Positions 628-27,825 of a stretch of 32,914 bases of DNA are shown here, piece by piece. Under the pieces are notes generated by a model that saw only the letters and a program-made list of their open reading frames with translations, was not told where the DNA came from and did not search any database. Within the stretch, counting starts at the first letter, position 1; every line of letters begins with the position of its first letter. This DNA is from Armatimonadota bacterium (GTDB taxonomy: Bacteria; Armatimonadota; Zipacnadia; Zipacnadales; FEN-943): positions 1 through 32,914 of the forward strand of contig PMZA01000445.1 of NCBI GenBank assembly GCA_003170595.1, given 5' to 3'. The position numbers and the translations under genes were made by a program.

Positions 628-2247
628 GTGGCGTATCAGGCACAACGGCGTTTGCGTCCTCCACAAGAGCTATTCGCTCTACGCGACGAGCTGCTGGACT
701 GGTGGCAGTCGCCCGGCCAGGCGGTCTACGTGTATGGAGGCGCGTGCCAGGCGAGGCGTGCGCGCGAGGTGGCGTCGGATTTCGCCCAACGTCTCGGCCC
801 GCGGCTGGCGGGCGGCTCCCCTCAGGATGTTGGCCTCTACACCGCCGGCTGCCACGGCCTGTGTTCGGTAGGACCCACAGTGTACGTTGCCCCTCTAGGC
901 GTCTTCTACGTGGACCTCACGGTTGACGATGTCGGCCCCATTGTCCGGCGGACTCTGGGCGAGGGCGAAATCCTCGACGATCTCACGCTCTGGGATGCAG
1001 CCACCGGGCGCCACATCCCCCTCAAGCAGGACGTACCGTTCCTCAGACTCCAGACGCGGCGGCTCATGCGTAGCTGCGGCGAGGTCGATCCCCGTCGCAT
1101 CGAGGACAGCCTCCGGCGCGGCGGGTACTCGGCGCTGGCGCTGGCGCTGGAAGGCATGGCCACCGAGGACATCGCTGCGGTCGTGGAGGCTTCCGGGCTG
1201 CGTGGACGCGGCGAGACGGATGCCCCCTGCGCGGAGAGATGGGCGGCCTTCACTAAAGCCTCGGCGGCTCGAAGGCGCCTGACGGCCTACGTGAAACGCT
1301 GGGACACTGCGGCGGCGACCGACTGCACGCTACTGGAGGGCGACCCTCACTTGGTTCTCGAAGGCATGGCTCTCGCGGCATTGGCGACGGGGTGCGAGGT
1401 GGGGCAGCTGCTGGTACCGCCCGGGCGCGATGTGGCCCTGGCAACGATGGAGGAAGCCATTGAGCAGGCCTGCGCCTACGGTCTGCTGGGCGAGAACATC
1501 CTTGGGACCAGATTCTCGTTCACAGTAGAGGTGTGCGCCTCTCGGCCCCTGAGATGGCCGACCGAGAACGAGGGTGAGGGGTGGTCTGCGTCGGGATCCT
1601 GCGAGCTTCGTCATAACGTCGAGACGCTGGCGAATCTCCCCGGGCTAGTGGCCAGGGGAGCGGCCGAGTTCCGCAGTGTTGGCCCACAGGAGTGCCCTGG
1701 CACGAGGCTTGTGTCGCTCGGAGGAGACCTGCGCTACCGAGGTGTAGTCGAAGTGCCCTGTGGAACGCCCGTGGTGGACATCATCGAGAAGCTGGGAGGC
1801 GGCGGTAAGAGCGGGGAGTCGCCGCAGGGCGTGTGCCTGGGCGGACCGGCAGGCAGGATTCTGCCCATGAGTCTGCTGGCCAGGACCGCATACGGTGTGG
1901 GGCCCGACGCGGCGGACGTGGTGGCCTTTGAGAACCCCGATAGCGTGGTTAGTCGCGTACGGCAGGCCGCGGCCTACGAGGCAGAGGAGGCCTGTGGCCG
2001 ATGCGCCCCTTGCAGGATCGGCACCAAGCGCGTCGTGGAGATCCTCGACGAACTGCTCCTGTGCGAAGGCAGCCCCTCGGCGGTCGCAGACCTGAGGGGC
2101 ATCGGCGAGGCCCTGACGTTGACCGCCGGCTGCGATCAGGGCGCCCACTGCGCGGACTCTGTTCTCTCCGCCATCGCTTCCTTTGAGGAGACCTTCCTCG
2201 CCCACCTTTCCGGTGGACCTTGCCCGTCGCCGGCCCGTGAGGCGTGA
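628..2247 (+). CDS. divergent NuoF-like protein lacking FMN/NADH motifs
   Basis: This 539-aa protein aligns along its length with NuoF/HydB-type subunits, including the two paralogues in this window. It has a thioredoxin-like N-terminal domain with GCHGLC (C75, C79), an SLBB-like segment (GVVEVPCGTPVVDIIEKL) and the C-terminal [4Fe-4S] motif CGRCAPC (C456, C459, C462) plus C502 at the right spacing. The flavin domain is degenerate: after GLRGRG (190-195) the Gly-rich loop is replaced by ETDAPCAERW, the acidic NxDEGDPGAF segment is absent, and the FVCGEETALLASLEG segment is gone. One N-terminal [2Fe-2S] Cys is Tyr36. The frame is intact with normal codon use, so it is not an obvious pseudogene. 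It ends 6 bases before the FdhA-like gene and probably partners with it. I infer an FMN-free electron-relay or structural subunit; NAD(H) reactivity is unlikely. GTG start chosen by the RBS at 614-620. Confidence 0.8.
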   Translation: MAYQAQRRLRPPQELFALRDELLDWWQSPGQAVYVYGGACQARRAREVASDFAQRLGPRLAGGSPQDVGLYTAGCHGLCSVGPTVYVAPLGVFYVDLTVDDVGPIVRRTLGEGEILDDLTLWDAATGRHIPLKQDVPFLRLQTRRLMRSCGEVDPRRIEDSLRRGGYSALALALEGMATEDIAAVVEASGLRGRGETDAPCAERWAAFTKASAARRRLTAYVKRWDTAAATDCTLLEGDPHLVLEGMALAALATGCEVGQLLVPPGRDVALATMEEAIEQACAYGLLGENILGTRFSFTVEVCASRPLRWPTENEGEGWSASGSCELRHNVETLANLPGLVARGAAEFRSVGPQECPGTRLVSLGGDLRYRGVVEVPCGTPVVDIIEKLGGGGKSGESPQGVCLGGPAGRILPMSLLARTAYGVGPDAADVVAFENPDSVVSRVRQAAAYEAEEACGRCAPCRIGTKRVVEILDELLLCEGSPSAVADLRGIGEALTLTAGCDQGAHCADSVLSAIASFEETFLAHLSGGPCPSPAREA

Positions 2248-2253
2248 CACGTC

Positions 2254-4968
2254 ATGCTCATGACGATAGACGACACAGCCTGCGAATACCGGTCTGGCGA
2301 GACGGTTCTTGAGGTCGCCCGGCGTCACGGCATCGACATACCGTCCCTGTGCGATGACCCGCAGGTGCGGGCGCGCGGGACGTGCCGGCTGTGCATGGTG
2401 GAGGTGGATGGCGAGGATCGTCCCGTCCCGGCCTGCATGACTGCGGCGGCGGAGGGCCTGAGTATTCGCACCGAGACGCCGCGGCTGGCCTCAGCAAGAC
2501 GGACGGTTCTAGAACTGCTGCTGTCGGATCATCCCGTGGAATGCAGCGGTTGTGAGCAATCCGGTAGCTGTCGGCTCGAGGAGCTGGCCCTCCGCTACAA
2601 GGTCCGCGCCAGCCGGTTCCTGGGCGCCCGCCACAGCGTTCCTGCGGCGTCGGACGCCAACCCCTTCATCCTTCGCGACCCCGCCCGGTGCCTTCTCTGC
2701 GGACTTTGCGTTGAGGCCTGCCGCGAGCTTGAAGGCGTGGGAGGCCTGCGGATCGCGGGACGAGGGTTCGACGCCCACATCGAGCATCTTACGGAAGGTG
2801 ACGGGGCCCGTGGGGGCTGCAGGCTCTGCGGCCGCTGCGTATCGGTGTGTCCTGCGGGCGCCTTGACGGAACGCAAGCGCAAGGGCCTGGGGCGTCTGGC
2901 CGAGGCGCGCAAGGTGCGCTCGGTATGCCCGCATTGCGCCGTCGGCTGTGAACTTGAGATCAACGTGCATGAAGGCGAGATAGCGGGGATCACGTCGAGT
3001 GGTGGCTATCTGTGCGTACGGGGCAGGTACGCCTACGACTTCGTGCACAGCCCTGATCGTATGACGGTCCCGCTGGCGCGCCACGGCCACGGCGCCTTGG
3101 GGGGCCACCTCCGGCAGGTCTCGTGGGACGCGGCCCTGGGTCTTGCCGCGGAGAGCCTGCAGCGGGTAGTGGCGCAGCATGGCCCGGAATCTGTCGCCGT
3201 CCTCGGTTCGTGCAAGGCCACCAACGAGGCCAACTACGTTCTGCAGAAGTTCGCCCGCGCGGTGCTTGGCACGAACAACATCGACAACGGCGCCGGGACC
3301 TGCGAGACGCCTAGGGTGATCCGAGGGGACCTGGAGCTTGGCACCGACCTGATGACGAACTCCTTCGAGGACTTCGAGCGCGCGTCGGTCATCCTGCTCG
3401 TAGGCTCGGACCCTGAACAAACCCACCCGGTTCTCAGCGCGCGCCTCCGACGTGCGGCCCGCATGGGCACCCGCCTGATCGTCGTCGACCCCCGGAGGAT
3501 CGACCTGACGGAGCAGGCCAGTACGTACCTGCGGCTGAGGGTGGGGAGCGAGGTCGCGCTGATCAACGCGCTGGTGAAGGTGATCCTCGACGAGGGCCTT
3601 TTCGACGGGCCCTTCGTGCTGGCGCACACCACGGGCATACACGATTTGGCCGAGTCAGTACACGCCGTGAGGATGGGCGAAGTCGCCCGCCAGACCGGCC
3701 TCGCCCAAGATGCGATCGAAGGCGTCGCCCGCCAGATCGCCGCCGCCGAGAGCGTCATGTTCGTATACACGACCGGGGCAGCTCATCCCCTCTGCGGTCA
3801 CGAGGTCGGCGCGGCGCTGAGGAATCTGGCCCTGCTCACTGGCAACGTCGGTCGCGACGGAGCAGGGACCAACGCGCTCCGGCTGCAGAACAACGCTCAG
3901 GGCGTCTGCGACATGGGCTGCCTGCCTGACGTCCTGCCCGGCTACCAGCCGGTGACCGATGCCGCAGTGCGCGCGAAGTTCGAGGCCGCGTGGGGGGTGA
4001 ACCTCCCGTCCGAGCCAGGCGTGGGCAGGGCCGGACTCCTGGACGCCATCCTCTCGGGCAGGATCAAGGCGCTCTATGTCATGGGCGAGAACCCCGCCGT
4101 CTCCTACCCCGATCCCGGCCGTACACGCCGCGCCCTGGAAAGCCTTGAGCTGCTGATCGTGCAGGACATCTTTTCGACGGAGACTGCGCAGCAGGCGGAC
4201 GTGGTGCTGCCTGCCGAGGCCTGGGCCGAGGTCGACGGGACCTACACCAGCACGGAGCGACGAGTGCAGCGGGTCCGGGCGGCTGTCCCGTCAGCCTGCG
4301 ATGTCCGCCCGGATTGGGAGATCGTGTGCCGGGTTGCCGAAGGCATGGGCCACCCGATGGGGTACCCCTTCGCTGAGGCGATATGGGACGAGGTCGCAGC
4401 CCTGTCCCCTCTCTTCTCGGGAATCACCTACGACCGGCTCGAGACGGGCGGCCTGCAATGGCCGTGCACGAACAGCTACGATTCGGGACGCAAGACCCTC
4501 CACGCCCTCGTGCATACCGACGGCGTTCGGGAAAGCTTCCGGCCGGTGCAAAGATCGGAAGCCTTGCCCGGCGCGGACGTCGATGACGAGTACCCGCTCC
4601 TGCTGACCACGGGCAAACGCCTGTACCACTACCAGCCCGGGACCACTGCCCAGCGCGCCGAGGGCCTCGACGACCTTTGGCCCGAGGACGTGCTGGAGGT
4701 CTCGCCGGCGGATGCAGCCCGGCACAACGCCACCGATGGCCGGCGGATCCGGGTGGTGTCGCGGCACGGGGAGACGGTGGCGACGGTGTGGGTGAGCGAC
4801 CGCACCGCGCCGGGCGTGGTCTTCCTCTCGCCCCACCCGCGGCGCGCGGGTAACCGCGAACTGGGCCTGTATGGCATGGACCGGCTAGCGGCCTCCACAG
4901 AGCATGGGGCCTGCGCAGTGCGCATGGAGTCCGTGGAGGCCGCCGTCATCGGCGGCCATGGAGGCTGA
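2254..4968 (+). CDS. FdhA-like molybdopterin oxidoreductase with altered active site
   Basis: This 904-aa protein has the architecture of NAD-linked formate dehydrogenase alpha subunits: a NuoG-like [2Fe-2S] domain (CDDP..CRLCMVEV), a His-Cys3 [4Fe-4S] site (HPVECSGCEQSGSC), two [4Fe-4S] motifs (CLLCGLCVEAC, CRLCGRCVSVCP), then the FDH-type [4Fe-4S]/bis-MGD catalytic domain from about residue 225 and a C-terminal molybdopterin-binding domain. The metal-ligand Cys is kept (C350), but the following residue, catalytic His in formate dehydrogenases, is Glu351 (TCETP). The Lys that links cluster and pterin in CVKG is Arg256, and the RGQNN motif around Arg543 reads RLQNN. The paralogue at 27837 has the canonical residues at all these places. 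Formate oxidation therefore cannot be assumed; the substrate is unknown. It follows the degenerate NuoF by 6 bases and lies upstream of ndk and cooS. Confidence 0.85.
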   Translation: MLMTIDDTACEYRSGETVLEVARRHGIDIPSLCDDPQVRARGTCRLCMVEVDGEDRPVPACMTAAAEGLSIRTETPRLASARRTVLELLLSDHPVECSGCEQSGSCRLEELALRYKVRASRFLGARHSVPAASDANPFILRDPARCLLCGLCVEACRELEGVGGLRIAGRGFDAHIEHLTEGDGARGGCRLCGRCVSVCPAGALTERKRKGLGRLAEARKVRSVCPHCAVGCELEINVHEGEIAGITSSGGYLCVRGRYAYDFVHSPDRMTVPLARHGHGALGGHLRQVSWDAALGLAAESLQRVVAQHGPESVAVLGSCKATNEANYVLQKFARAVLGTNNIDNGAGTCETPRVIRGDLELGTDLMTNSFEDFERASVILLVGSDPEQTHPVLSARLRRAARMGTRLIVVDPRRIDLTEQASTYLRLRVGSEVALINALVKVILDEGLFDGPFVLAHTTGIHDLAESVHAVRMGEVARQTGLAQDAIEGVARQIAAAESVMFVYTTGAAHPLCGHEVGAALRNLALLTGNVGRDGAGTNALRLQNNAQGVCDMGCLPDVLPGYQPVTDAAVRAKFEAAWGVNLPSEPGVGRAGLLDAILSGRIKALYVMGENPAVSYPDPGRTRRALESLELLIVQDIFSTETAQQADVVLPAEAWAEVDGTYTSTERRVQRVRAAVPSACDVRPDWEIVCRVAEGMGHPMGYPFAEAIWDEVAALSPLFSGITYDRLETGGLQWPCTNSYDSGRKTLHALVHTDGVRESFRPVQRSEALPGADVDDEYPLLLTTGKRLYHYQPGTTAQRAEGLDDLWPEDVLEVSPADAARHNATDGRRIRVVSRHGETVATVWVSDRTAPGVVFLSPHPRRAGNRELGLYGMDRLAASTEHGACAVRMESVEAAVIGGHGG

Positions 4969-4974: not shown

Positions 4975-5499
4975 ATGCCCGAGACACAGGCCAGGACAGC
5001 GACAACTCAAGCCCTCGCGACCGAGACGCAGGTCGAGGAGACCTTCGTGCTGATAAAGCCCGACGCCGTGCGCCGCAAGCTCGTGGGCGAGATCGTGGGC
5101 CGCTTGGAGCACAGGGACCTCAAGATGGTCGCGGCGAGATTGGTCAGGCCGACGCGAGAACTCGCCGGGCAGCACTACGGCGACGAGATCGCGCAGCGGT
5201 ATGGCGAAGAGATCCGGAACGCTTTGCTCGACTATGTGTGCGGTGGACCTTGCCTGGCCATGGTATGGCGCGGCCCGGAGGCTGTGGCGACGGCGCGAGG
5301 CGCCGTCGGCCTGAGGCCCCAACCCGGCGACTGCGAACCGGGGAGCGTCCGGCGCGATTTTGGTTGCGACACGATCGAGGCATCCCGGGCGGAGCGGCGG
5401 GCCCTGGAGAACTTGGTGCACACATCGGACGCGCATGGATCGGCCCAGCAGGAGATCAGGCTTTGGGGCCTGATGGACGAGAGACAGCTCAGGCAGTGA
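4975..5499 (+). CDS. ndk: nucleoside diphosphate kinase (long-form, divergent)
   Basis: The 174-aa product carries the NDP kinase fold signatures: FVLIKPDAVRRKLVGEI near residues 23-39, the HY segment, GPCLAMVWRG, PGSVRRDFG and the catalytic histidine in NLVHTSD (H149). The enzyme passes phosphate from ATP to NDPs through a phosphohistidine. It has a roughly 20-residue N-terminal extension and an insert before the His motif, as in the longer NDK group. The usual PFF segment and GATNP motif are replaced (RYGEEIR, GLRPQPG), so activity is likely but not certain. It starts 6 bases after the FdhA-like stop and ends 16 bases before cooS, inside a redox operon, an unusual location for a housekeeping gene. 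Confidence 0.88.
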   Translation: MPETQARTATTQALATETQVEETFVLIKPDAVRRKLVGEIVGRLEHRDLKMVAARLVRPTRELAGQHYGDEIAQRYGEEIRNALLDYVCGGPCLAMVWRGPEAVATARGAVGLRPQPGDCEPGSVRRDFGCDTIEASRAERRALENLVHTSDAHGSAQQEIRLWGLMDERQLRQ

Positions 5500-5515: not shown

Positions 5516-7453
5516 ATGTCGCAGATGGCAAAGACGATTGACCCGGCGAGCCAGTTGATGATCGAGTGCGCGGCCTGCGAGGGCATCGGCCTCACGTGGG
5601 ACCGCCTCGAAGCGATGCAGCCCCAGTGCGGCTTCGGCAAGCTCGGCGTGTGCTGCACGACGTGTCAGATGGGGCCTTGCAGGATCGACCCCTTCGGCAC
5701 GGGCCCGAGCGAGGGCGTGTGCGGTGCTACCGCGCAGACCATCGTGGCCCGCAACCTGGCGCGGAAGATCGCTGCCGGCTGCGCCGCCCATTCCGACCAC
5801 GGCCGAACCGTGGCCGAGGCCCTGTTGCTTGCGGCCGAGAATCCGGACAGCGGCTACAAGATCAAGGACGAAAAGAAGCTCAGAGTCGTCGCGGAAGAGT
5901 TCGGCCTCGCGGTTGACGGCAAGTCCGTCGAGGCGATCGCGAAAGCGGTGGCCGAGGCATGCCTGGGCGAGTTCGGCAAGCTCCACGGTGAGCTCGTCAT
6001 GGCCCAGCGCGCCCCGGAGCCGCGAAAGGCTCTGTGGCGGCAACTGGGCATCATGCCCGGCGCCATCGACCGCGAGGTTGTGCGCCTGCTCCACCAGACG
6101 AACATGGGCGTGGATGCCGACCCCACGAACCTGCTGCTCTCGGGGATGCGCTGCGCTCTGGCCGATGGCTGGGGCGGATCGATGATGGCCACCGATCTGC
6201 AGGACATCCTCTTCGGCTCGCCCAAGCCGATCCGGACGAAGACGAACCTCGGGGTGCTGAAGGCCCCCAAGGTCAACGTGATCGTGCACGGCCACGAGCC
6301 GGTGCTCTCGGACATGCTCGTCGAGGCGTCGCGCGATCCGGAGATCCTCGCGGCGGCCGCGGCTGTCGGTGCCGACGGCATCCAGCTCGCGGGCATCTGC
6401 TGCACGGGCAACGAGATCCTCATGCGCCGCGGCGTCCCCTCGGCCGGGTCCTTCCTGCACCAGGAGCTCGCGCTGCTGACCGGCGCCGTCGAGGCCATGA
6501 TCGTCGACGTGCAGTGCTGCATGCCTGGCCTGCCGAGGCTGGCGGACCACTATCACACCCAGATCATCACCACCTCGCCCAAGGCGAAGATGCCGGGCGT
6601 CCGCCACATGCAGTTCGACGAGAACCGGGCCTACGAGGTGGCGAAAGAAATTCTCCTGGCGGCGATAGAGGCCTTCCCGAAGCGTGAAGCCGCGCGGGTA
6701 AACATCCCCAAGGAAGAGGTCGATCTCGTGGCGGGCTTCACGGCCGAGTACGTGCGCACGCTCCTGGGCGGTCGCTTCCGCCCGTCGTACCGCCCGCTCA
6801 ACGACGCGATCATCTCCGGGCGAATCCGTGGAGTGGCCGGCGTCGTCGGCTGCGAGAACCCGCACCTCACGCAGGGCAAGAGCCACGTGGACATGATGAA
6901 GGAGCTCATCCGCAACGACGTGCTGGTGGTGTCGAGCGGGTGCTCGGCTCTCGCGGCGGCGCGCGAAGGATTGCTGACCCCCGAGGCGGCGCGGATACAC
7001 GCCGGCCGTGGGTTGGCCGAGGTGTGTGAGGCCGTGGGGATGCCGCCCATCCTGCACGTTGGGGCCTGCGTGGACAACAGCCGCATCCTCATCGCGTGTT
7101 GCGAGATGCTCAAGGAGGGCGGGCTCGGCAACGACATCTCCGACCTGCCTGCCGCGGGTGCCGCGCCCGAATGGATGTCGGAGAAGGCGATCACCATCGG
7201 CTTCTACGTGGTGGCCTCGGGGATCTACACGATCTTCGGCGAGCCCCAGCCGATGATGGGCTCGCCCGAGGTGCGCGACCTGATGTGCCGCGAGTTCGAG
7301 GAGATCGTCGGCGGCCGCTACGACTTCGAGGCCGACGCGATCAAGGCGGCGCACATGATGATCGAGCACATGGACCGCAAGCGGGCCGCCTTGAAGCTCC
7401 AGCCGATGATGTACGAGGCCGCACCGAAGGAACTTGCGCTGGCGTCGGCTTAG
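5516..7453 (+). CDS. cooS: anaerobic carbon monoxide dehydrogenase, Ni-Fe-S catalytic subunit
   Basis: The 645-aa protein is a bacterial CooS/AcsA, the usual length for the family. It interconverts CO and CO2 and in this context supplies CO to acetyl-CoA synthase. The D- and B-cluster cysteines sit in CGFGKLGVCCTTCQMGPC (C38, C46, C47, C50, C55) followed by GVCGAT near 69. C-cluster ligands are visible as His260 in HGHEP, the GICCTGNE segment near 295, VQCCMPG near 333, GCENP near 447, SGCSA near 477 and GACVDNSR near 527. All expected ligands are present. It is co-directional with cooF 12 bases downstream and with acsB further on, which favours a role in the ACS complex. It can also be called acsA. 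Confidence 0.97.
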   Translation: MSQMAKTIDPASQLMIECAACEGIGLTWDRLEAMQPQCGFGKLGVCCTTCQMGPCRIDPFGTGPSEGVCGATAQTIVARNLARKIAAGCAAHSDHGRTVAEALLLAAENPDSGYKIKDEKKLRVVAEEFGLAVDGKSVEAIAKAVAEACLGEFGKLHGELVMAQRAPEPRKALWRQLGIMPGAIDREVVRLLHQTNMGVDADPTNLLLSGMRCALADGWGGSMMATDLQDILFGSPKPIRTKTNLGVLKAPKVNVIVHGHEPVLSDMLVEASRDPEILAAAAAVGADGIQLAGICCTGNEILMRRGVPSAGSFLHQELALLTGAVEAMIVDVQCCMPGLPRLADHYHTQIITTSPKAKMPGVRHMQFDENRAYEVAKEILLAAIEAFPKREAARVNIPKEEVDLVAGFTAEYVRTLLGGRFRPSYRPLNDAIISGRIRGVAGVVGCENPHLTQGKSHVDMMKELIRNDVLVVSSGCSALAAAREGLLTPEAARIHAGRGLAEVCEAVGMPPILHVGACVDNSRILIACCEMLKEGGLGNDISDLPAAGAAPEWMSEKAITIGFYVVASGIYTIFGEPQPMMGSPEVRDLMCREFEEIVGGRYDFEADAIKAAHMMIEHMDRKRAALKLQPMMYEAAPKELALASA

Positions 7454-7465: not shown

Positions 7466-7996
7466 ATGAAAGGCTCGGCGATATGGGTGGAGATCGAGAA
7501 GTGCCTGGGGTGCAAAACCTGCGAGGTCGAGTGCGCGCTGGCCCACTGCGAGGTCAGCGACATCGTCGAGGTGGTCACTCGGGCGCTGCGGCCGACGCAC
7601 CGCGTGAGCGTCACGCCGGTGTCCTACGAGATCGCCGTCCCGATCCAGTGCCGGCACTGCGAGGACGCCCCGTGCATAGCCGTGTGCCCGTCGGGCGCGC
7701 TGACCAAGCTCGGGCCCGAGCAGGCTGTGGTCCACGACGCCGACAGGTGCATCGGCTGCAAGAGCTGCATCATCGTATGCCCCTTCGGCGCGGTCGCGAT
7801 CGGGCCCGATGGTCGGACGATCGTGAAGTGCGACCTCTGCGCCGCGCGAGCTGCCGAAGGGCAGATGCCGGCGTGCGTGAGCGGTTGCCCGACGAAGGCG
7901 CTGCATTTCGGGGAGATCGACGATCTCGCCCGCGAAGCGCGCAAGAAGGCGGCGAGGAATTTGCTCGAGGCGATGTTGGCGGAGAGCGAGGGTTAG
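7466..7996 (+). CDS. cooF: CooF-like four-cluster ferredoxin
   Basis: The 176-aa protein has four cysteine motifs in the order seen in CooF/HycB-type electron-transfer subunits: CLGCKTCEVECA, CRHCEDAPCIAVCP, CIGCKSCIIVCP and CDLCAARA..PACVSGCP. These bind four [4Fe-4S] clusters. CooF carries electrons between CODH and a partner complex. Here the partner is plausibly the NuoE/NuoF/HoxU-like module encoded next. There is no signal peptide or membrane segment, so it is cytoplasmic. A strong AGGAGAGGTG overlaps the cooS stop and precedes ATG 7466. Confidence 0.93.
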   Translation: MKGSAIWVEIEKCLGCKTCEVECALAHCEVSDIVEVVTRALRPTHRVSVTPVSYEIAVPIQCRHCEDAPCIAVCPSGALTKLGPEQAVVHDADRCIGCKSCIIVCPFGAVAIGPDGRTIVKCDLCAARAAEGQMPACVSGCPTKALHFGEIDDLAREARKKAARNLLEAMLAESEG

Positions 7997-8018: not shown

Positions 8019-8495
8019 ATGGCCCTGGAAATCGAGGACACAACCGAGCTGGTCGAGATCATCCTCAGGAGCTACGCGCCGGAGCCCTCGGCTCTGATCG
8101 CGATGCTGCAGGACATCCAGCGCGACTGCCGGCATCTGCCCCGCGAGGCGCTGGTGCGAGTCGGCGAGCACCTCGGTGTGCCGCTGAGCCAGGTCTATCG
8201 CGTGGCAACCTTCTACGCCACCTTCAGCCTCGAGCCTCGTGGCAGGTACGTGCTCCGCGTATGCGACGGGACGGCGTGCCACCTGAAGGGCTCAGGGCTT
8301 CTGGTCGAGGCCATCCAGCGCCGCCTCGGCATCGGCCCGGACGAGACGACCGAGGATGGGCTGTTCACGCTGGAGACCGTGCACTGCCTCGGGGCGTGCG
8401 CTCTGGCGCCCGTGATGGTGGTCAACGATAAGTTCCACCCCCATCTGGACATGAGCAAAGTGGCACGCATCATCGATGCGTACGCAAAGGGGTAA
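8019..8495 (+). CDS. NuoE/HydC-type [2Fe-2S] thioredoxin-like subunit
   Basis: The 158-aa protein matches the NuoE/HydC/HndA family: a helical N-terminus (LIAMLQDIQRDCRHLP), the YRVATFYATF segment, then the thioredoxin-like [2Fe-2S] domain with CDGTAC and CLGAC ligands. It passes electrons to or from the FMN of its NuoF partner, encoded 5 bases downstream. The order nuoE, nuoF+ferredoxin, HoxU-like equals the core of electron-bifurcating HydABC-type and NAD-linked complexes, but no hydrogenase gene is present and the neighbours are CODH genes. Confidence 0.93.
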   Translation: MALEIEDTTELVEIILRSYAPEPSALIAMLQDIQRDCRHLPREALVRVGEHLGVPLSQVYRVATFYATFSLEPRGRYVLRVCDGTACHLKGSGLLVEAIQRRLGIGPDETTEDGLFTLETVHCLGACALAPVMVVNDKFHPHLDMSKVARIIDAYAKG

Positions 8496-8500
8496 GTCGC

Positions 8501-10354
8501 ATGGCACTAGTCGCCGACGCCAGGAGCTTCGATGAACTCTGTGAGAGGATCCGGACCACGCATGCGCCCGGCCGGTCCGTCGTGTGCGTATGTGGGGGCA
8601 CCGGCTGCCGGGCGTCGGAGAGTGAACTACTCGCGCCCGCCTTCGAGCAGGCCCTGTCGGAGAGCGGCCTTGCCGGCGCCGTCGACCTCCGCGTCACCGG
8701 ATGCCACGGCCTGTGCGAGTATGGCCCGCTGGTCATCGTCCACCCCCAGCGGTTCTTCTACCAGCGCGTGAAGCCCGACGACGCCGCCGAGATCGTGCGG
8801 CAAACGGTCCTCGGCGGCGAGCCCGTCGAGCGTCTGCTCTACAGGGATCCTGCCACCGGCCGCCTGATGCTCCACGACCATGAGGTGCCCTTCTATACCC
8901 GCCAGCAGCGCATCGCCATGCGCGACAACGGGGTCATCGATCCCCGTCGCCTTGACGACTACATCGCCCGCGGCGGCTATGACGCGCTACGCAAGGTCCT
9001 GACCTCGATGTCGCCCGAGCAGGTGATCGACGAGGTGGAGAAGTCGGGGCTCCGTGGCCGCGGCGGCGGCGGCTTCCCCACCGGACGCAAGTGGCGGGCT
9101 TGCCGCAACGCGCCGGGCGATGTCCGCTACGTCATCTGCAACGGTGACGAGGGCGATCCCGGCGCCTTCATGGACGAGGGCATCATGGAGGGCAACCCGC
9201 ACGCGGTCCTCGAGGGGATGGTGGTCGGCGCCTACGCGATCGGCTCACGCGAAGGGTTCATCTACGTGCGCGGCGAGTACCCCCTGGCCGTCGAGCGCCT
9301 GAGCGTCGCCGTCGAACAGGCCCGCCACTACGGGCTCCTGGGCTATGACATCCTCGGCTCGGGCTTCAGCTTCGACGTCACCATCGCCCGCGGCGGAGGC
9401 GCCTTCGTCTGCGGAGAGGAGACCGCCCTGCTGGCCTCCCTGGAAGGCAAAGCCGGTGAGCCGCGGCCCAAGTATGTCTTCCCCGTCGAGGTCGGCCTGT
9501 GGGGCAAGCCCACGACGATCAACAACGTCGAGACCTGGGCCTGCATCGCGCCGATCCTTACTATCGGCGCCGACTGGTTCGCCGCCATCGGCACCGAGAA
9601 GAGCAAGGGCACCAAGGTCTTCTCGGTAGTCGGCAAGGTCGAGAACACCGGCCTCATCGAGGTCCCCATGGGGATCACGCTACGCGAGATCATCTTCGAC
9701 CTGTGCGGCGGAATCAAGGGCGGCAAGAAGCTCAAGGCCGTGCAGACCGGCGGGCCGTCGGGCGGATGCATCCCCGCCGAGCTGCTCGATCTGCCCGTGG
9801 ACTACGAGCACCTGACCGAAGCCGGCTCGATGATGGGCTCCGGCGGCATGATCGTCATGGACCAGGAAACCTGCATGGTGGACCTGGCGCGCTACTTCGT
9901 CGCCTTCCTCGCCGAGGAGTCCTGCGGCAAGTGCACGCCCTGCCGTGAGGGCCTGCGTCAGATGCTCGCCCTTCTCACCCGGATCACCCGCGGCGAGGGT
10001 CAGCCCGGCGACGTCGAGGTCCTCAGCGAACTCGCCGACACCCTCTCCGATGCGGCCCTCTGCGGCCTCGGCACGACCGCCGCCAACCCCGTCCGCACGA
10101 CCCTGCGCTACTTCCGCGATGAGTACGAGGCCCACGTCACCGAACACCGGTGCCCCGCAGGCTTCTGCCGGGACCTCATCACCTTCTGGATCAACACGGA
10201 CGCCTGCACGGGCTGCCAGGCGTGCGCAAAGGTCTGCCCGGTGCAGGCGATCTCGGGCGAGGCCAAGAAGCCCCACGTGCTGGATCAGGCGACGTGCATC
10301 CGCTGCGGCCTGTGCCGGATGACCTGCCGGTTCGAGGCGGTGCAGGTGGAGTGA
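8501..10354 (+). CDS. NuoF/HydB-type FMN/NAD(P)H subunit with C-terminal 2[4Fe-4S] domain
   Basis: The 617-aa protein has a thioredoxin-like N-terminal domain (CGGTGC, GCHGLC), intact FMN/NAD motifs (GLRGRGGGGFPTGRKW, NGDEGDPGAFMDEG, GAFVCGEETALLASLEG, INNVETW), an SLBB segment, the [4Fe-4S] motif SCGKCTPC, a His/Cys stretch (AHVTEHRCPAGFC) and a C-terminal ferredoxin with two [4Fe-4S] motifs (CTGCQACAKVCP, CIRCGLCRMTC). This is the HydB arrangement known from electron-bifurcating hydrogenases, where the His/Cys stretch and the ferredoxin extension belong to the bifurcating core. Unlike the other two NuoF paralogues here, only this one has the ferredoxin. I infer an NAD(P)H-linked, possibly bifurcating, partner of CODH. 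Confidence 0.93.
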   Translation: MALVADARSFDELCERIRTTHAPGRSVVCVCGGTGCRASESELLAPAFEQALSESGLAGAVDLRVTGCHGLCEYGPLVIVHPQRFFYQRVKPDDAAEIVRQTVLGGEPVERLLYRDPATGRLMLHDHEVPFYTRQQRIAMRDNGVIDPRRLDDYIARGGYDALRKVLTSMSPEQVIDEVEKSGLRGRGGGGFPTGRKWRACRNAPGDVRYVICNGDEGDPGAFMDEGIMEGNPHAVLEGMVVGAYAIGSREGFIYVRGEYPLAVERLSVAVEQARHYGLLGYDILGSGFSFDVTIARGGGAFVCGEETALLASLEGKAGEPRPKYVFPVEVGLWGKPTTINNVETWACIAPILTIGADWFAAIGTEKSKGTKVFSVVGKVENTGLIEVPMGITLREIIFDLCGGIKGGKKLKAVQTGGPSGGCIPAELLDLPVDYEHLTEAGSMMGSGGMIVMDQETCMVDLARYFVAFLAEESCGKCTPCREGLRQMLALLTRITRGEGQPGDVEVLSELADTLSDAALCGLGTTAANPVRTTLRYFRDEYEAHVTEHRCPAGFCRDLITFWINTDACTGCQACAKVCPVQAISGEAKKPHVLDQATCIRCGLCRMTCRFEAVQVE

Positions 10355-10356
10355 CC

Positions 10357-11112
10357 ATGACACCCTTCACGATCAACAACCTTCCGGTGGAAGCCGAGCC
10401 CGGCGAGACCGTCCTCCAGGTCGCGCGGCGGTATGGCATCGAGATACCGACCCTGTGCTACCACGAGGCGGTGACGGCCTATGCGTCGTGCCGGCTGTGC
10501 ATCGTAGCGGCGACCGAGGGCGGACGGACGCGCATCGTGACCTCGTGTACTTACCCCGCTCGCGAGGGCCTGGAGGTCCACACCGACACCGAGGCCGTCC
10601 GCGCTCTCCGGCGGGTGCTGCTGGAGCTGCTGCTGGCCGAGGCGCCGGCGTCCGAGCAGCTGAGGGAGTACGCGGCCGGCCTGGGCGTCACGACCACGCG
10701 CTTCCCGAGCGAGGACCCCGAGAATAAGTGCATCCTCTGCGGCCTCTGCGAACGGGTGTGCAGCGAGCACGCCCACGTCGGCTCGATCAGCTTCGCCCAC
10801 CGGGGCCCGCGGCGGAAGATGACGACGCCCTTCGATGAGCCGCCGGATCAATGCAAGGGCTGCACGGCCTGCGCTTACGTCTGCCCGACCGGCGCGATCG
10901 ACGTGCGGATCGGCGCCGGTGGGATGGAGCTGGAGCCATGGTGCGCGCGAGTGGAGATGGTGGCGTGCGCGGAGTGCGGGATGAGGTTCGCGCCCGCGCC
11001 AGAGATGGAGGAGTTGGCCGAGAAGGGGAAGGTGGAGCCGGCGGTGATGGCACTGTGCCCGATCTGCCGGCGAAAAGCGCATGCGAGAGTCCTGTTGACA
11101 GGCAAAGCGTGA
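10357..11112 (+). CDS. HoxU/NuoG-N-terminal-like iron-sulfur protein with CxxC tail
   Basis: Start ATG 10357 lies 2 bases after the nuoF stop; the frame is open further upstream but that part overlaps nuoF. The 251-aa product has a NuoG/HoxU-like [2Fe-2S] domain (CYHE..CRLCIVAA..C) and two [4Fe-4S] motifs (CILCGLCERVC, CKGCTACAYVCP). The His-Cys3 cluster usual in this family is missing: the region around LLLAEAPASEQLREYAAG has no cysteine. The C-terminus adds two CxxC pairs (C204/C207 and C234/C237) like a zinc or rubredoxin-type knuckle, similar to tails of HycF/HyfH-type ferredoxins. There is no catalytic domain, so it is an electron wire, probably between the NuoEF module and CooF/CODH. 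Confidence 0.85.
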   Translation: MTPFTINNLPVEAEPGETVLQVARRYGIEIPTLCYHEAVTAYASCRLCIVAATEGGRTRIVTSCTYPAREGLEVHTDTEAVRALRRVLLELLLAEAPASEQLREYAAGLGVTTTRFPSEDPENKCILCGLCERVCSEHAHVGSISFAHRGPRRKMTTPFDEPPDQCKGCTACAYVCPTGAIDVRIGAGGMELEPWCARVEMVACAECGMRFAPAPEMEELAEKGKVEPAVMALCPICRRKAHARVLLTGKA

Positions 11113-11170: not shown

Positions 11171-13366
11171 ATGTCGAAGACTGTCGCTATCGCCGCAATC
11201 CGCGGGTCTCATGGGGTGGTCGACCTCGTCGAAGAGGAGTACGAGGCCGCTCTGAGTCTGCACGGCCTCGACGGGAAGATCGGATTTCCCGCCACGGCCT
11301 TCTACCTGCCCATGGCGTGCGCGCTGCTGGGGCTGGAAGTGGAGACTCTCGGCCAGATGGGCGTGGTCCTCGACGAGGCCAAGAGCTTGCTCGCCGATGA
11401 GCCGACCGAGAACATCTGGCTGCCGTACCTGAGCAGCGCCCTCGACGCCGGCATCGCTACCCTCCTCGGCCAGGAGATGCTGATGGCCCTCCGCTACCTC
11501 GACGGCCGCGAGCCCCAGCCGGGGTGGCACGGGTTCATCTCCGACACGATCCTGCGATCGCTCGGCATCCAGCTCGTCGACGGCCGCCTGCCCGGCTTCG
11601 CGGCGATCGTGGGCGCGGCCCCGAACAACGAGACCGCCGTGCATATCCTCCGCGAGCTGCAAAAGCGGAGCATCCTCACCTTCCTCGTCGGCAACGACGA
11701 CGGCCGCACGATGCGCGATCAGCTCCTCGAGGAGGGCATCATCCCCGACGATCCGGCCGCTGGCTGGGACACCTACACCGTGCCGCTGGGGCCGGACACC
11801 CACTCGCTGATCTACGCGCTCAACTGGGCGATCCGCGGCGCCCTCACCTTCGGCGGCGTGCAAAAGGGCGACTGGGAGCGCGCGCTCAAGTATTGCCGCG
11901 ACAGAATCTTCGCCTTCGGCATGGGGCTCGGGCCCATCGACGATCTCAAGTTCGCCGCCGGTGCTGGTGCGATCAACATGGGCTTCCCGGTCATATGCGA
12001 CACGCTCATTCCGGAGATCAGGCCCACGGGCGTCTGCACCTACGAGGAGTTGGTCCACGAACTCGACCACGCCAAAATCGTGCCCACGTGCATCGAAGTG
12101 CGCGGGGTGAAGGTGACGGTCAAAGAGATCGACATCCCAGTCCCGGTGGCGGCGGCCTTCGAGGGCGAGACGGTCCGCAAGGCCGACATGCACTGCCAGT
12201 TCGGCGGCAAGTACTCCACCTGCTTCGAGTACGTGAAGATGCGCGAGATGGATGAGCTCGAGGACGGCAAAATCACTGTCCTCGGCGACGACTTCGACCA
12301 GATCGAGGAAGGCGGCGCGCGCCCCATGTTCACCTTCATCGAGGTGGCCGGGCGGAAGATGCACCAGGACTTCGAGCCCATCCTCGAACGGCAGATCCAC
12401 ACGATCCTCAACCACGCCCTCGGCGTCTTCCACATGGGCCAGCGCGACATGCCGTGGGTGCGCATCAGCAAGGATGCGGCCAAGGCCGGCCTGCGGATGA
12501 AGCACCTCGGCTCGCTGCTGATCGCCGAGTTGCACGCGCGCTTCGGCGCGATCGTGGACAAGATCCAGGTCACCATCTGCACCGACGAGAGCCGGTTCGA
12601 ACCGCTGCTCACCGAGGCGAAGCTGGCCTACGCGACCCGCGACGAGCGCATCGGCGGCATGACCGACGACTCGGTCGACATCTTCTACTCGTGCACCCTC
12701 TGCCAGTCCTACGCGCCCAACCACGTGTGCATCATCAGCCCCGAGCGCCTCGGCCTTTGCGGCGCCTACAACTGGCTCGACGGCCGCGCCTCCTTCGAGA
12801 TCAACCCCGCCGGGCCCAACCAGCCCGTGGACAAGGGGCAGACGATCGACCAGGTACGCGGCCAGTGGTCGGGCGTCAACGAATTCGTCAACGCCGCCTC
12901 GAACAAGTCCATCGAGTGCTTCAACGCCTACTCGCTGATGGAGGACCCGATGACCTCCTGCGGATGCTTCGAGTGCATCGTGGCCATCCTCCCCGAGGCG
13001 AATGGGGTCATGATCGTCAACCGCGAGTACGAGGGCATGACGCCGATAGGCATGCCCTTCACAACGCTCGCGGGCACGGTCGGTGGTGGGGCGCAGACGC
13101 CCGGCTTCCTCGGAGTGGGGCGGCTATATATCACGTCGAAGAAGTTCATCTCGGCCGAGGGCGGGCTCCCGCGAGTGGTATGGATGCCCAAGGAACTAAA
13201 GGACGGCGTCATGGATCTGCTCCGCAAGCGGGCCGAGGAGATGGGCATACCCGACCTCCCCGACAAGATCGCCGACGAGACCGTCGCCACGACGAGCGAA
13301 GAGCTGCTCGACTATCTGATGAAGGTCGACCACCCGGCACTGACGATGGATTCCCTGCTGGGATAA
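11171..13366 (+). CDS. acsB: acetyl-CoA synthase, ACS subunit of CODH/ACS
   Basis: The 731-aa protein is a full-length bacterial AcsB (about 729 aa in Moorella). It condenses CO from CODH, a methyl group from the corrinoid protein and CoA into acetyl-CoA at the Ni-Ni-[4Fe-4S] A-cluster. All A-cluster ligands are present: C508, C511, C520 and C530 in the segment CTLCQSYAPNHVC..C, and the Cys-Gly-Cys that chelates distal Ni at C597-G598-C599. Each is exactly two residues later than in the Moorella enzyme, so the protein is nearly colinear with it. The N-terminal CODH-docking domain, absent from archaeal ACS, is included. AcsC follows 12 bases downstream. Confidence 0.98.
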   Translation: MSKTVAIAAIRGSHGVVDLVEEEYEAALSLHGLDGKIGFPATAFYLPMACALLGLEVETLGQMGVVLDEAKSLLADEPTENIWLPYLSSALDAGIATLLGQEMLMALRYLDGREPQPGWHGFISDTILRSLGIQLVDGRLPGFAAIVGAAPNNETAVHILRELQKRSILTFLVGNDDGRTMRDQLLEEGIIPDDPAAGWDTYTVPLGPDTHSLIYALNWAIRGALTFGGVQKGDWERALKYCRDRIFAFGMGLGPIDDLKFAAGAGAINMGFPVICDTLIPEIRPTGVCTYEELVHELDHAKIVPTCIEVRGVKVTVKEIDIPVPVAAAFEGETVRKADMHCQFGGKYSTCFEYVKMREMDELEDGKITVLGDDFDQIEEGGARPMFTFIEVAGRKMHQDFEPILERQIHTILNHALGVFHMGQRDMPWVRISKDAAKAGLRMKHLGSLLIAELHARFGAIVDKIQVTICTDESRFEPLLTEAKLAYATRDERIGGMTDDSVDIFYSCTLCQSYAPNHVCIISPERLGLCGAYNWLDGRASFEINPAGPNQPVDKGQTIDQVRGQWSGVNEFVNAASNKSIECFNAYSLMEDPMTSCGCFECIVAILPEANGVMIVNREYEGMTPIGMPFTTLAGTVGGGAQTPGFLGVGRLYITSKKFISAEGGLPRVVWMPKELKDGVMDLLRKRAEEMGIPDLPDKIADETVATTSEELLDYLMKVDHPALTMDSLLG

Positions 13367-20732: not shown

Positions 20733-21842
20733 ATGGTCCAGTCCATCTACATAGCGGGTACAGGACAGCATGCGGGCAAGACCTTCGTCTCCCTGGGCCT
20801 CGTGGCGGCGCTGCGCGAGAGAGGCCTGGCGGTCAGGTATATGAAGCCGGTCGGCCAGCGGACCGTGCACGTTGACGGCGTGTCCGTCGACGAGGACGTG
20901 GCCCTGATCCATCGCGTCTTCGGCATGCCCGGCGCCGTGACGGCGGCCAACCCCATCACCGTTCCCCGCGGGTTCACCCAGCGCTTCCTGCTGGGGGGCG
21001 GCAACACGGACTCGCTGAAGGAGAAGATACTGGCGGGCTTCGCAGAGACCAGTGACGGCGCCGACGTAGTTGTCGTTGAGGGCACGGGCCACGCCGGCGT
21101 GGGCGCCGTCCTCGGCCTCTCGAACGCGACGGTCGCGGCTCTCCTCAACTCGAGGACCATCGTCGTCATCGGCGGCGGCATCGGACAACCCATCGACGAA
21201 TTCGCCGTCAACCAGGCGCTCTTCGAGAAGGAAAGCGCCCCTCTCCTGGGAGTGATAAGCAACAAGGTTCAGCCCTCGAAGATGGAGGAATGCCGTTCGA
21301 CGGTGTCGGTGTGGTTCGGCGGCGCGGGGATTCCCGTCTTGGGCATGGTCCCGATGCTGCCCGTTCTCTTGGAGATCACCCTCCGCCAGGTAGTCCACGA
21401 GATCGAGGCCTACGTCCTCAGCGGCGAGGAGTTCCTCGACCGCCGTCTCCGCAAGTTCATCATCGGCGCCGCGCCCGCCCACCGGCTGCTCGACGAGTTC
21501 ACCGAGGGCACTCTGGTCATCACGCCCGGAGACCGCGATGACATCATCCTGGCCTGCATCTCCGCCGAACTCAGCGCCGAGGCCAGCGACGACGCGCCCC
21601 ACGTCTCGGCCCTGTGCCTCACCGGCGGCGTCCGCCCGCAAACGAACGTGCTGCGAATCATCGAGCGGAGCCGCGTACCGGTCATCGCCTCCGACGATGG
21701 CACCTTCAACCTCGCCACGCGGATCGCGAACCTCGTTGCGAAGATCCTTCCGAGGGATCACGAGAAGATTCGCATCGCCAAGGAAACGGTCGGCGAGCTC
21801 GTGGACATCGACAGAATCGCCGGCGGTCTGTCGAGCGCCTAG
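20733..21842 (+). CDS. BioD-like ATPase with DRTGG domain (PTA N-terminal-like)
   Basis: The roughly 369-aa protein combines a dethiobiotin-synthetase-like P-loop domain (GTGQHAGKT near residues 8-16, VVVEGTGHAGVG) with a C-terminal DRTGG domain (VITPGDRDDIILACIS). This equals the N-terminal regulatory half of large phosphotransacetylases without the catalytic PTA domain. Stand-alone versions exist in many bacteria and their role is unclear; at the end of an acetyl-CoA-forming operon a sensor or regulator of acetyl-CoA/acetyl-phosphate metabolism is conceivable, but unproven. Biotin synthesis is unlikely because no bio genes are near. A GTG at 20724 overlapping the previous stop is an alternative start. 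Confidence 0.85.
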   Translation: MVQSIYIAGTGQHAGKTFVSLGLVAALRERGLAVRYMKPVGQRTVHVDGVSVDEDVALIHRVFGMPGAVTAANPITVPRGFTQRFLLGGGNTDSLKEKILAGFAETSDGADVVVVEGTGHAGVGAVLGLSNATVAALLNSRTIVVIGGGIGQPIDEFAVNQALFEKESAPLLGVISNKVQPSKMEECRSTVSVWFGGAGIPVLGMVPMLPVLLEITLRQVVHEIEAYVLSGEEFLDRRLRKFIIGAAPAHRLLDEFTEGTLVITPGDRDDIILACISAELSAEASDDAPHVSALCLTGGVRPQTNVLRIIERSRVPVIASDDGTFNLATRIANLVAKILPRDHEKIRIAKETVGELVDIDRIAGGLSSA

Positions 21843-21883
21843 CCTTGGCCTCGAGTCGCCTGCTCCGGCACCCGAGCTTCGAT

Positions 21884-21899
21884 CCACTCAGGCGAGTGG
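21884..21899 (+). terminator. hairpin after the acs gene string, possible terminator
   Basis: CCACTC (21884-21889), loop AGGC, GAGTGG (21894-21899) form a perfect 6-bp stem 41 bases after the last gene of the acs string and before the pabB promoter-like element. There is no T-run after it, so it would be a weak or non-canonical terminator. Confidence 0.35.
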
Positions 21900-21926
21900 C
21901 TCTGGTTGGCCAGCCGTCACGCCCCT

Positions 21927-21954
21927 TTGGATTAGGCCTTGCAGGGCCTATACT
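21927..21954 (+). promoter_or_regulatory. possible promoter of pabB-pabC
   Basis: TATACT (21949-21954) is a 5/6 match to a -10 box; a weak -35 (TTGGAT, 21927-21932) lies 16 bases upstream. Transcription would begin about 30 bases before ATG 21992. An inverted repeat AGGCC(21934-21938)/GGCCT(21945-21949) covers the spacer and could be an operator. The match is suggestive only. Confidence 0.35.
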
Positions 21955-21991
21955 GGACTTGAATTTGGACCCGTTCTCTGCGGCAAGGCCA

Positions 21992-23437
21992 ATGGCAGAC
22001 CAACCCATCGTCGACCTTCTTGATGCGCCGGAACCCATCGCCCTCGCCTCCGCTCTCGCCGACGAGCCCCATGTGGCGTGGCTCGATGCGGCGCTTCCCG
22101 GTGGGCCGCAGGGACGCTACAGCCTGATCGCCGCGCGGCCGTCGACGATCCTCGAAGCGAAGGGCGATCGCCTGCTCGTCGGCCCGCCAGCTGCGCCACG
22201 GGAGGAAAAGGGCGACCCGTTCCGGGCCTTGGAGCGCCTCCTCGCCGAGTGGCGGACCTCTGCGCCGGGCTTCCCGCTGCCCTTCGCCGGTGGGATGGTC
22301 GGCTACTTCGGCTACGACCTCGCGCCGTGGACTGAGCCGGTGACGCTCCATGCCGTCGACGACCTGCAGGTCCCCGATATGTTCATCGGCTTCTACCCCG
22401 CGGCGGTGGTCTACGATCACGCCGACCGCGCCGCTTGGCTTGTCCACCTGCCCGGAAAGGGCGGTGAAGAGGCGTCAAAGTGGCTCCGAGAGGTCGCTGG
22501 AAGGCGCTCAAAGGGGCCTCAAACGACGCCCAAGAGGGCCGTTGCGGAGGGTACGGAGCTGTCCTGCAACTTCACTTACGACCGCTACACCGCGGCGATC
22601 AGGCGGGCGAAGGAGTACATCGCCGCGGGCGATATCTATCAGGTGAACCTCTCCCAGAGGTTCCAGGCGCCGCTCCAGAGCGACGGATTCTCGCTCTACA
22701 ACCGCCTCAGAACGACGAATCCTGCCCCTTTCGCAGCCTATCTGCGACACGAGGACGAGGTCGAGGTGCTCAGTTCGTCCCCCGAACGCTTCCTCAGAAT
22801 GGAGTCCGACGGGCTGGTCGAGACCCGTCCGATCAAGGGCACGATCGCCCGCGGGGCGACGCCGGAGGAGGATCGCCGCCTGGCCGACGTTCTCCGCGCG
22901 AGTGTCAAAGATAGGGCGGAGCTGCTCATGATCGTCGATCTCGAGCGCAACGACCTGGGCAAGGTCTGCGAGTTCGGGACGGTGCGGGTGCCGGAGCTGG
23001 GAGGTCCTGCGGACCTCTTTGCCCTGGAGAGCTATGAGACGGTGCATCACCTGGTAGCGACGGTTCAGGGGCGGCTGAGGGCCGGTCAGGGGCCGGTGGA
23101 CCTGCTCCGGGCGACGTTTCCCGGCGGGTCGATCACCGGCGCGCCCAAGATCCGCTCCATGCAGATCATCGACGAGCTTGAGCCGACCAGGAGGGCCGTG
23201 TATACCGGCTCCATCGGCTACATCTCCGCCCATGGGCGGATGGACCTAAACATCGCCATCCGGACCTTAATCGTGCGCGGGAGCGAGGTGTTCTACCAGG
23301 TGGGAGGCGGAATCGTGGCCGACTCGGACCCGCATGCCGAGTACGTGGAGACGCTGCACAAGGGCCGGGGCATGGCAGCAGCGCTGGCGGAGGACTTGCC
23401 GGCGCAGCTTGACGCCCTGGCCGGAGGTGTATCGTGA
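21992..23437 (+). CDS. pabB: aminodeoxychorismate synthase component I
   Basis: The 481-aa protein belongs to the chorismate-utilising TrpE/PabB family. The catalytic segment reads TRPIKGTIARG with Lys282; the Lys is diagnostic of PabB, whereas anthranilate synthase has Ala there. Other motifs are GDIYQVNLSQRF, SSSPERFL, LMIVDLERNDLGKVC and FPGGSITGAPKIRSM. It makes 4-amino-4-deoxychorismate from chorismate and ammonia or glutamine; the glutaminase PabA is not in the window. ATG 21992 was chosen because the frame upstream is not protein-like, but its ribosome binding site is weak (AAGG). pabC overlaps its stop codon. The product feeds folate synthesis, needed for the methyl branch. Confidence 0.95.
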   Translation: MADQPIVDLLDAPEPIALASALADEPHVAWLDAALPGGPQGRYSLIAARPSTILEAKGDRLLVGPPAAPREEKGDPFRALERLLAEWRTSAPGFPLPFAGGMVGYFGYDLAPWTEPVTLHAVDDLQVPDMFIGFYPAAVVYDHADRAAWLVHLPGKGGEEASKWLREVAGRRSKGPQTTPKRAVAEGTELSCNFTYDRYTAAIRRAKEYIAAGDIYQVNLSQRFQAPLQSDGFSLYNRLRTTNPAPFAAYLRHEDEVEVLSSSPERFLRMESDGLVETRPIKGTIARGATPEEDRRLADVLRASVKDRAELLMIVDLERNDLGKVCEFGTVRVPELGGPADLFALESYETVHHLVATVQGRLRAGQGPVDLLRATFPGGSITGAPKIRSMQIIDELEPTRRAVYTGSIGYISAHGRMDLNIAIRTLIVRGSEVFYQVGGGIVADSDPHAEYVETLHKGRGMAAALAEDLPAQLDALAGGVS

Positions 23438-24264
23438 ACTGGGCGCCGACCGCGTGGCGGGATGGGGCGCTGGTGCCAACTGAGACGCTGACCCTCCCGG
23501 CGATGAGCTTTGCCGCGCTGTACGGCTTCAGCCTCTTCGAGACGCTGCGGACTTATGGCGGGCGGCCGTTCCTGCTCGATAAGCACGTTGTGCGGATGAA
23601 ATCGGGCGCTGAAGAGCTAAGATTGGGCGCTCCGGAACTGTCTGAGAGCGTGATTTCGGCGGTTCTCGGCGCCAATAATCTCTCTGATGCGGCTGTGCGG
23701 ATGACGCTGGTGGCGATGGGGGACGACTGGGACGACCTCAGACCGTCGCTGACGGTCGCTGTGCGGGCGTTCGAAGGCTATCCGGAGGAGTGGTATCGCG
23801 ACGGAATCGACCTCGTTGTGGCGCCGTGGCGTCGCTGCGCACAAGACGCGACGGTCGGCCTCAAGTCGGGGAACTACCTGACTTGCCTGCGGGCGAGGGA
23901 GTTCGCCCACCGGGCGGGCGCCCAGGAGGCCCTGCTGCGGAACTGCGCCGGGCAGGTGACGGAAGGGGCCGTCACGAACTTGTTCGCCGTCGTTGCCGAT
24001 GGGACACTCGTCACGCCGCCGGTGGAGGACGGCCTTCTGCCGGGGGTGACGCGGGCGGTGGTGCTGAACCTCGCGCGGGAAGCGGGGATCCGGGCAGCGG
24101 AGCGGTCGATCGCGCCCGAGGACCTGGGCGCGTTCAGGGAAGCTTTCGTCACGAACTCGCTGATGGAAATCGTGCCGGTCAGACGGATAGGGGATAGGCC
24201 GGTCGCGACCTGCCCCGGAGAGACCACCCGGCTTCTTGCGGAAGCCTACAGCCAGCTTCACTGA
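23434..24264 (+). CDS. pabC: aminodeoxychorismate lyase (class IV PLP enzyme)
   Basis: The 276-aa protein is a fold-type IV PLP enzyme with the cofactor lysine K144 in LKSGNYLTCLRARE and the EGAVTNLFAV and LPGVTRAVV motifs. The family includes branched-chain aminotransferases and D-amino acid aminotransferases, but the translational overlap with pabB (GTG 23434 within GTGA, GGAGGT 5 bases before) argues for aminodeoxychorismate lyase, which forms p-aminobenzoate and pyruvate. Confidence 0.9.
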   Translation: MNWAPTAWRDGALVPTETLTLPAMSFAALYGFSLFETLRTYGGRPFLLDKHVVRMKSGAEELRLGAPELSESVISAVLGANNLSDAAVRMTLVAMGDDWDDLRPSLTVAVRAFEGYPEEWYRDGIDLVVAPWRRCAQDATVGLKSGNYLTCLRAREFAHRAGAQEALLRNCAGQVTEGAVTNLFAVVADGTLVTPPVEDGLLPGVTRAVVLNLAREAGIRAAERSIAPEDLGAFREAFVTNSLMEIVPVRRIGDRPVATCPGETTRLLAEAYSQLH

Positions 24265-27465: not shown

Positions 27466-27486
27466 TGGGGGCTAGGAGCATCGTCC

Positions 27487-27822: not shown

Positions 27823-27825
27823 CTC

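Follow-up and report, generated by a model that had tools for sequence, protein, structure and literature searches.

Probable flavin-free electron relay or docking piece, related to NAD-linked formate dehydrogenase, at the head of a CODH/ACS operon in Armatimonadota

NuoG of complex I and the QrcB-type molybdopterin-like subunits have the fold of formate dehydrogenase (FDH), with the Mo function lost, and form part of an Fe-S conduit. How CODH/ACS and FDH are supplied with electrons is a central question in the bioenergetics of the Wood-Ljungdahl pathway, the known solutions being flavin-based hubs, ferredoxin or hydrogenases. The electron chain of FDH is Mo–Fe-S–...–B1–FMN (PMC7171172, PMC8880783), and in homologues FMN is located 6 Å from the B1-type [4Fe-4S] cluster (PMC8880783). 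In the FdsB/FdsA pair of the NAD-linked FDH of Rhodobacter capsulatus and Cupriavidus necator, the His-Cys3 cluster of FdsA is found at the dimer interface, and the N-terminal domain of FdsB carries no [2Fe-2S] cluster (PMC7171172). A flavin-free NuoF fold is known from NqrA, a NuoF/RnfC-fold subunit of the membrane pump Na+-NQR (PMC9588780), which is also without Fe-S clusters and is regarded as a subunit without cofactors or known direct function (PMC9588780, PMC12174285). In Bacillus subtilis, the FdsA-like subunit ForC contains Gln in place of the active-site His, with Cys and Arg kept, and has FDH activity; its non-diaphorase partner ForE belongs to DUF1641 and is not a NuoF relative (PMC8808070).

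The window analysed here is the whole of a contig of 32,914 nucleotides from an Armatimonadota MAG (6.4 Mb, 84.5% complete, contamination 5.2%). The 32.9 kb contig is a Wood-Ljungdahl gene cluster, and its features from degF to acs, as well as the NuoF2–FdhA2 pair, are on the forward strand. It begins with a pair of genes, here called degF (628-2247) and degFdhA (2254-4968), followed by ndk for a nucleoside diphosphate kinase (4975-5499), cooS for the Ni CO dehydrogenase (5516-7453), and a gene for a four-cluster ferredoxin protein (Fer4, 7466-7996). The latter is CooF/HycB/DmsB-like, lies three genes downstream of degFdhA and is a candidate electron partner. Then come an intact nuoE–nuoF–hoxU-like diaphorase module (8019-11112), the acetyl-CoA synthase gene acs (11171-13366), acsC, acsV, acsD, acsE and others; after the acs genes, the distal part of the contig contains nuoE2, nuoF2, fdhA2 and fdhD. 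Gaps between genes from degF through nuoF are 5-22 bp, which indicates a single operon.

DegF is a NuoF/FdsB/HydB-like protein without the FMN/NADH site. Its frame is open over about 540 codons (539-540), with a GTG start preceded by GAGGTGA; the initial annotation had likewise described the frame as intact. The best phmmer match among PDB sequences was HydB of T. kivui (8a6t_B, E 7e-77), and homology to the NuoF fold was supported by Foldseek (E 3e-32 to 7p5h_B, with a model of pLDDT 60). The Pfam family NADH_4Fe-4S scored 58 bits; Complex1_51K was matched at positions 1-99 of 150 only, with 34 bits, compared to 148-150 bits for the two intact copies. For the comparison of motifs, degF and its orthologue from another genome (G001, see below) were aligned with 42 intact Armatimonadota NuoF proteins. 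The five FMN/NAD loops named for HydB (PMC8880783) are all altered or deleted in both orthologues, so that the initial annotation, which had recognised a NuoF paralogue with altered FMN/NADH motifs, named fewer losses than there are. In the former FMN loop 1 (1201-1230) the consensus GRGG[AG]G has become GRGETD, i.e., GRGGAGFPT is replaced by GRGETDAPC, including a new Cys, C201, common to both orthologues. The segment NxDEGDPGAF had been thought missing; its motif is indeed lost, but the segment is still there with other residues, NADEGDPGAFM of loop 2 (1282-1323) reading YVKRWDTAAAT. The FMN-binding Asn is Tyr in both orthologues (N221Y), Arg or Thr stands in place of the binding Glu, and the next Gly is Trp (G225W). 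The former loop 3 (GAGAFVCGEETALLASLEG, 1537-1614) has lost its motif; the stretch G.GAFVCGEETAL...EG...PT..NNVET is about 19 residues shorter in degF; a shortening of the flavin domain by some 20 residues had been noted earlier. GGPSGG is changed to GGPAGR, and MGSGG to GPDAAD.

The cluster ligands show the opposite pattern. Cys456, Cys459 and Cys462 (1993-2013), three ligands of the N3/B1-type [4Fe-4S] cluster, are invariant in both orthologues and the 42 intact copies, and the fourth, Cys502 (2131-2133), is also kept in both; the retention of these four residues had been reported correctly. Among 62 flavin-domain columns with at least 95% conservation in intact copies, 31 were changed or deleted in both orthologues, as against 4/4 cluster cysteines kept (hypergeometric p = 0.03, within degF). 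The N-terminal domain, most of which had been stated to remain, is thioredoxin-like and lacks one of its usual residues: the first of four Cys of the [2Fe-2S] site is Tyr36 (733-735) in both orthologues and Cys in 32 of the 42 intact copies. Four other cysteines, C201, C256, C282 and C378, are found in both orthologues and in 0/42 intact copies; three of them are situated in the former flavin domain and might bind a metal. The structure models were too weak (pLDDT 60 and 39) to resolve the pocket or the spacing of the new cysteines. Judged by the loss of motifs, degF would thus be a flavin-free NuoF retaining a [4Fe-4S] site. This part of the earlier interpretation is supported; the role of relay or assembly subunit attached to it is still a proposal.

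HydB proteins of bifurcating HydABC (8a6t, 7p5h, 7t2r) are the closest solved relatives of degF by sequence and fold. In contrast to them, degF has no FMN loops and ends after the NADH_4Fe-4S domain, without the C-terminal two-cluster (2x[4Fe-4S]) ferredoxin domain; two conserved Cys positions which are likely matches of the HydB B2 [2Fe-2S] ligands (439, 537) are not Cys in degF of the window. NqrA shares the absence of flavin from a NuoF-type fold, but degF has kept its [4Fe-4S] ligands and is paired with an FdhA relative instead of being part of a membrane pump.

This relative, degFdhA, is an FdhA-like protein with a NuoG/HoxU-type N-terminal Fe-S domain (2254-2907), in which all cluster ligands are present and both orthologues retain 34 of 35 conserved columns. 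It was compared with 25 intact FdhA proteins. All 20 Fe-S ligands are kept in both genomes, including those of the Mo-proximal cluster. Around the formate site, however, the protein is altered in both. Where the 25 intact FdhA have Cys/Sec-His, with Cys or TGA (Sec) as the Mo ligand, degFdhA shows Cys350-Glu351 (3301-3306) and its orthologue Arg-Trp; hence the Mo-ligand position is Cys in one and Arg in the other, and the catalytic His is lost in both (Glu and Trp, respectively). In the LCVKGR motif, whose Lys lies between the Fe-S cluster and the Mo cofactor, this residue is Arg (3019-3021), and Met in G001. The catalytic Arg543 (3880-3882) is kept in both, its neighbours being changed alike (P541A, G544L, V548A), and a further change of the substrate pocket, H512P, is common to both. 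The motif FHF.E..AN.LT (4843-4857), in the C-terminal region expected to hold the pterin cofactor, is altered by E864R and N868R, and is changed in G001 too. The changed residues of active site and C-terminus suggest that the Mo cofactor may be missing. Since ForC works with Gln (PMC8808070), the missing His is by itself no proof that degFdhA is inactive; the argument is based on the combination of changes and the Arg in G001.

Because the formate site is altered in both genomes, a point that the initial annotation had missed, the two proteins would be a degenerate FDH heterodimer rather than a diaphorase without flavin attached to a functional FDH. FdsB and FdsA have the same domain plan and gene pairing, and the N-terminal domain of FdsB resembles that of degF in being without a [2Fe-2S] cluster (PMC7171172). 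They differ from the pair, which has no FMN/NADH loops, no catalytic His and a variable Mo Cys, is located in a CODH/ACS operon, and is not accompanied by a NuoE/FdsG gene next to degF in the window or in G001. Like NuoG and the QrcB-type subunits, degFdhA is a relative of the FDH fold with N-terminal Fe-S ligands kept; here the change was seen in one family only, the NuoF partner would be flavin-free, and there is no membrane complex. ForC and ForE are similar as an FdsA-like subunit with replaced active-site His and a non-diaphorase partner, but ForC is active and ForE is no NuoF relative. Both the window genome and G001 possess a second, canonical NuoE–NuoF–FdhA–FdhD set apart from the pair. 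In the window this FDH is encoded by NuoF2–FdhA2 (25693-30569), with NuoE2 just upstream. The cells need therefore not rely on degFdhA for formate chemistry.

An orthologue of degF with the same losses, for which the initial annotation had suggested a search, occurs in a second genus of this Armatimonadota family. It is 48% identical (G001:C75, L036/L059) and is encoded on contig JANZZA010000158.1 of Armatimonadetes bacterium SKW107. That contig ends inside degFdhA, and another one starts with the last part of this gene and continues with ndk, cooS, Fer4, acs, acsC, acsV, acsD and acsE; degFdhA is 59% identical to its orthologue and acetyl-CoA synthase 83%. The order degF–degFdhA–ndk–cooS–Fer4–acs thus matches the window, the nuoEF–hoxU module aside, and the CODH/ACS operon of each genome is headed by the pair, which the initial annotation had not noticed. 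Within this operon of G001, no other NuoF/HoxU-type unit was seen. Contamination or misassembly as the origin of the pair was rejected in view of its occurrence in two MAGs of different genera, with 48-59% identity and the same gene order. A third orthologue was not found among 291 Armatimonadota genomes, where the pair scored 1087 and 1123 bits and the next protein, a NuoF with intact loops, 348; nor among 84,980 species genomes searched with peptide patterns, which would miss distant relatives. In this collection, a scan with a single sequence gave no match, and one with two sequences gave only the G001 contig. The third genome of the family (G002) contains neither ACS nor degF, and sampled genomes in which CooS and Fer4 were both found upstream have a cooS–Fer4–acs core that lacks degF, degFdhA and ndk. 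This makes the pair, with two known orthologues, an addition ahead of CODH/ACS that is specific to the family.

Two side observations concern this operon. The ndk gene is found between degFdhA and cooS in both genomes, directly after degFdhA, and no copy turned up in the other CODH/ACS operons sampled. The NADH module (nuoE–nuoF–hoxU) comes and goes within CODH/ACS operons: it lies between the CooF-like gene and acs in the window, and is found in genome G042 (in G024 at least hoxU), but G001 and several further genomes lack it at this place, between Fer4 and ACS.

The pair is under purifying selection. Omega values (NG86, window versus G001) were 0.28 for degF and 0.15 for degFdhA; intact genes gave 0.13 (NuoF2), 0.10 (FdhA2) and 0.07 (ACS). 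With degF well below 1, neither the dN/dS check nor the search for an orthologue, both named earlier as possible refutations, spoke against the initial annotation. These values are rough, dS being 1.5-2.3 and near saturation. Differences in degF by codon position were 0.39, 0.31 and 0.60, which is independent of the saturation correction. Nonsynonymous divergence of the pair is about 2-4 times that of the intact paralogues and ACS, and thus only loose constraint would be needed. At 57 strongly conserved positions of degF the two orthologues differ from every intact copy or almost every one, and at 27 of these they share the identical new residue; in the flavin domain this applies to 11 of the 27 positions that both have lost without deletion, N221Y and G225W among them, and in degFdhA to 20 of 32 positions lost in both. 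Identity of the flavin domains of the two degF proteins is 53%, not lower than in the rest of the protein. In trees, degF and degFdhA formed long basal branches and could not be placed.

What could such a pair do? Judging from the residues kept and lost, it is probable that degF-degFdhA serves as an electron relay or docking piece without flavin, and that it is neither an ordinary enzyme nor a dying gene. The leading interpretation, to which we give about even credence, is that of a flavin-free Fe-S adaptor for CODH/ACS, originating from an NAD-linked FDH, which would relay or store electrons of a one-electron carrier. By homology to FdsAB, degF and degFdhA should assemble to a heterodimer of the FdsA/FdsB type in which the NADH/FMN entry is lost, the formate/Mo exit altered or lost, and the cluster set between them kept. 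If all sites are occupied, there would be one [4Fe-4S] cluster in degF and, in degFdhA, one [2Fe-2S], one His-Cys3 [4Fe-4S], two ferredoxin-type [4Fe-4S] and the Mo-proximal [4Fe-4S] cluster; these six could pass on single electrons, or park them, for the CODH/ACS pathway. Replacement of the flavin loops and deletion of about 19 residues could leave the B1-type cluster, formerly covered by FMN, facing a one-electron carrier, perhaps ferredoxin or the CooF-like protein, which would dock there. The FdhA-type clusters might then relay or store the electrons and possibly hand them to a partner docking at the N-terminal Fe-S domain of degFdhA; alternatively the electrons would go nowhere, and the pair would be an electron buffer. 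If the Mo site is dead, the wire would have no known terminal acceptor, which counts against a relay.

A related proposal, possible but rather unlikely, is that the dead heterodimer serves as a ferredoxin port, which docks on the intact FDH (by the FdsA-type interface with the His-Cys3 cluster) or on CODH/CooF. It would be a pseudo-protomer in a mixed complex, through which single low-potential electrons could enter Wood-Ljungdahl enzymes without flavin or NADH. We consider it unlikely that the pair is a structural pseudoenzyme, serving CODH/ACS or the intact FDH as a scaffold or in assembly or regulation, with structural or vestigial clusters through which no catalytic current flows. NqrA provides a precedent, and the faster evolution compared to the intact paralogues would fit; yet 24/24 Fe-S ligands are kept in both genomes despite the loss of the flavin site, and a mere scaffold would not need them. 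That degFdhA has kept its bis-MGD and converts a different substrate, degF being the ferredoxin port of this molybdo- or tungsto-enzyme, appears distinctly improbable. The catalytic Arg and most motifs of the bis-MGD fold are kept, the pocket changes common to both orthologues could point to a new substrate, and ForC is active without the active-site His (PMC8808070); against this, the Mo ligand itself differs between the orthologues, the Lys between cluster and cofactor is lost, and conserved residues of the C-terminal cofactor region are changed in both.

There is little likelihood that the former flavin domain binds another nucleotide, flavin in a new mode, or a metal via C201, C256 and C282. 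The new cysteines shared by the orthologues and the undiminished identity of the domain would be consistent with a new ligand, but bulky Tyr and Trp have taken the place of the FMN Asn and Gly, and no known binding motif was recognised in the flavin domain of degF. A pair of decaying pseudogenes would explain the rapid divergence and is nevertheless extremely unlikely: frames are open over 539 and 904 codons in the window, the sequenced part of the G001 copies contains no stop, and many derived residues are identical. This explanation was rejected on the grounds of the orthologue in another genus, the conserved synteny, and the omega values.

A limited literature search revealed no title or abstract on a flavin-free NuoF paired with an FdhA relative, and no description of a flavin-less NuoF end combined with an altered FDH end and a kept Fe-S set at CODH/ACS. 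If our leading interpretation, the Fe-S adaptor, is true, modern bacteria would have made a plain Fe-S conduit out of an FDH, in a way that resembles the step behind NuoG of complex I. Annotation pipelines would call the two genes nuoF and fdhA, and a warning is appropriate against counting them as an NADH-dependent formate dehydrogenase.

Some further observations were made on the contig and its MAG. NuoF2 (25693-27465), otherwise intact, contains NAHEGDPGAF; NADEG or NGDEG is present in 40 of the 42 intact copies, the counterpart in G001 has NADEG, and His at this site occurs in one other copy (L048). The frame of NuoE2 is 24956-25771; the listed open reading frame 25233-25679 is in another frame and has no family match. 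The same MAG contains a second ACS (L100, G000:C13:1-3545), about 52-57% identical, with CooS and AcsD fragments, representing either a second CODH/ACS operon or contamination, which amounts to 5.2% of the MAG. Inside the Wood-Ljungdahl cluster, at 21614-24264, genes for a chorismate-binding protein (PabB/TrpE-type) and a class IV aminotransferase (PabC-type) were found, which perhaps have a role in folate supply.
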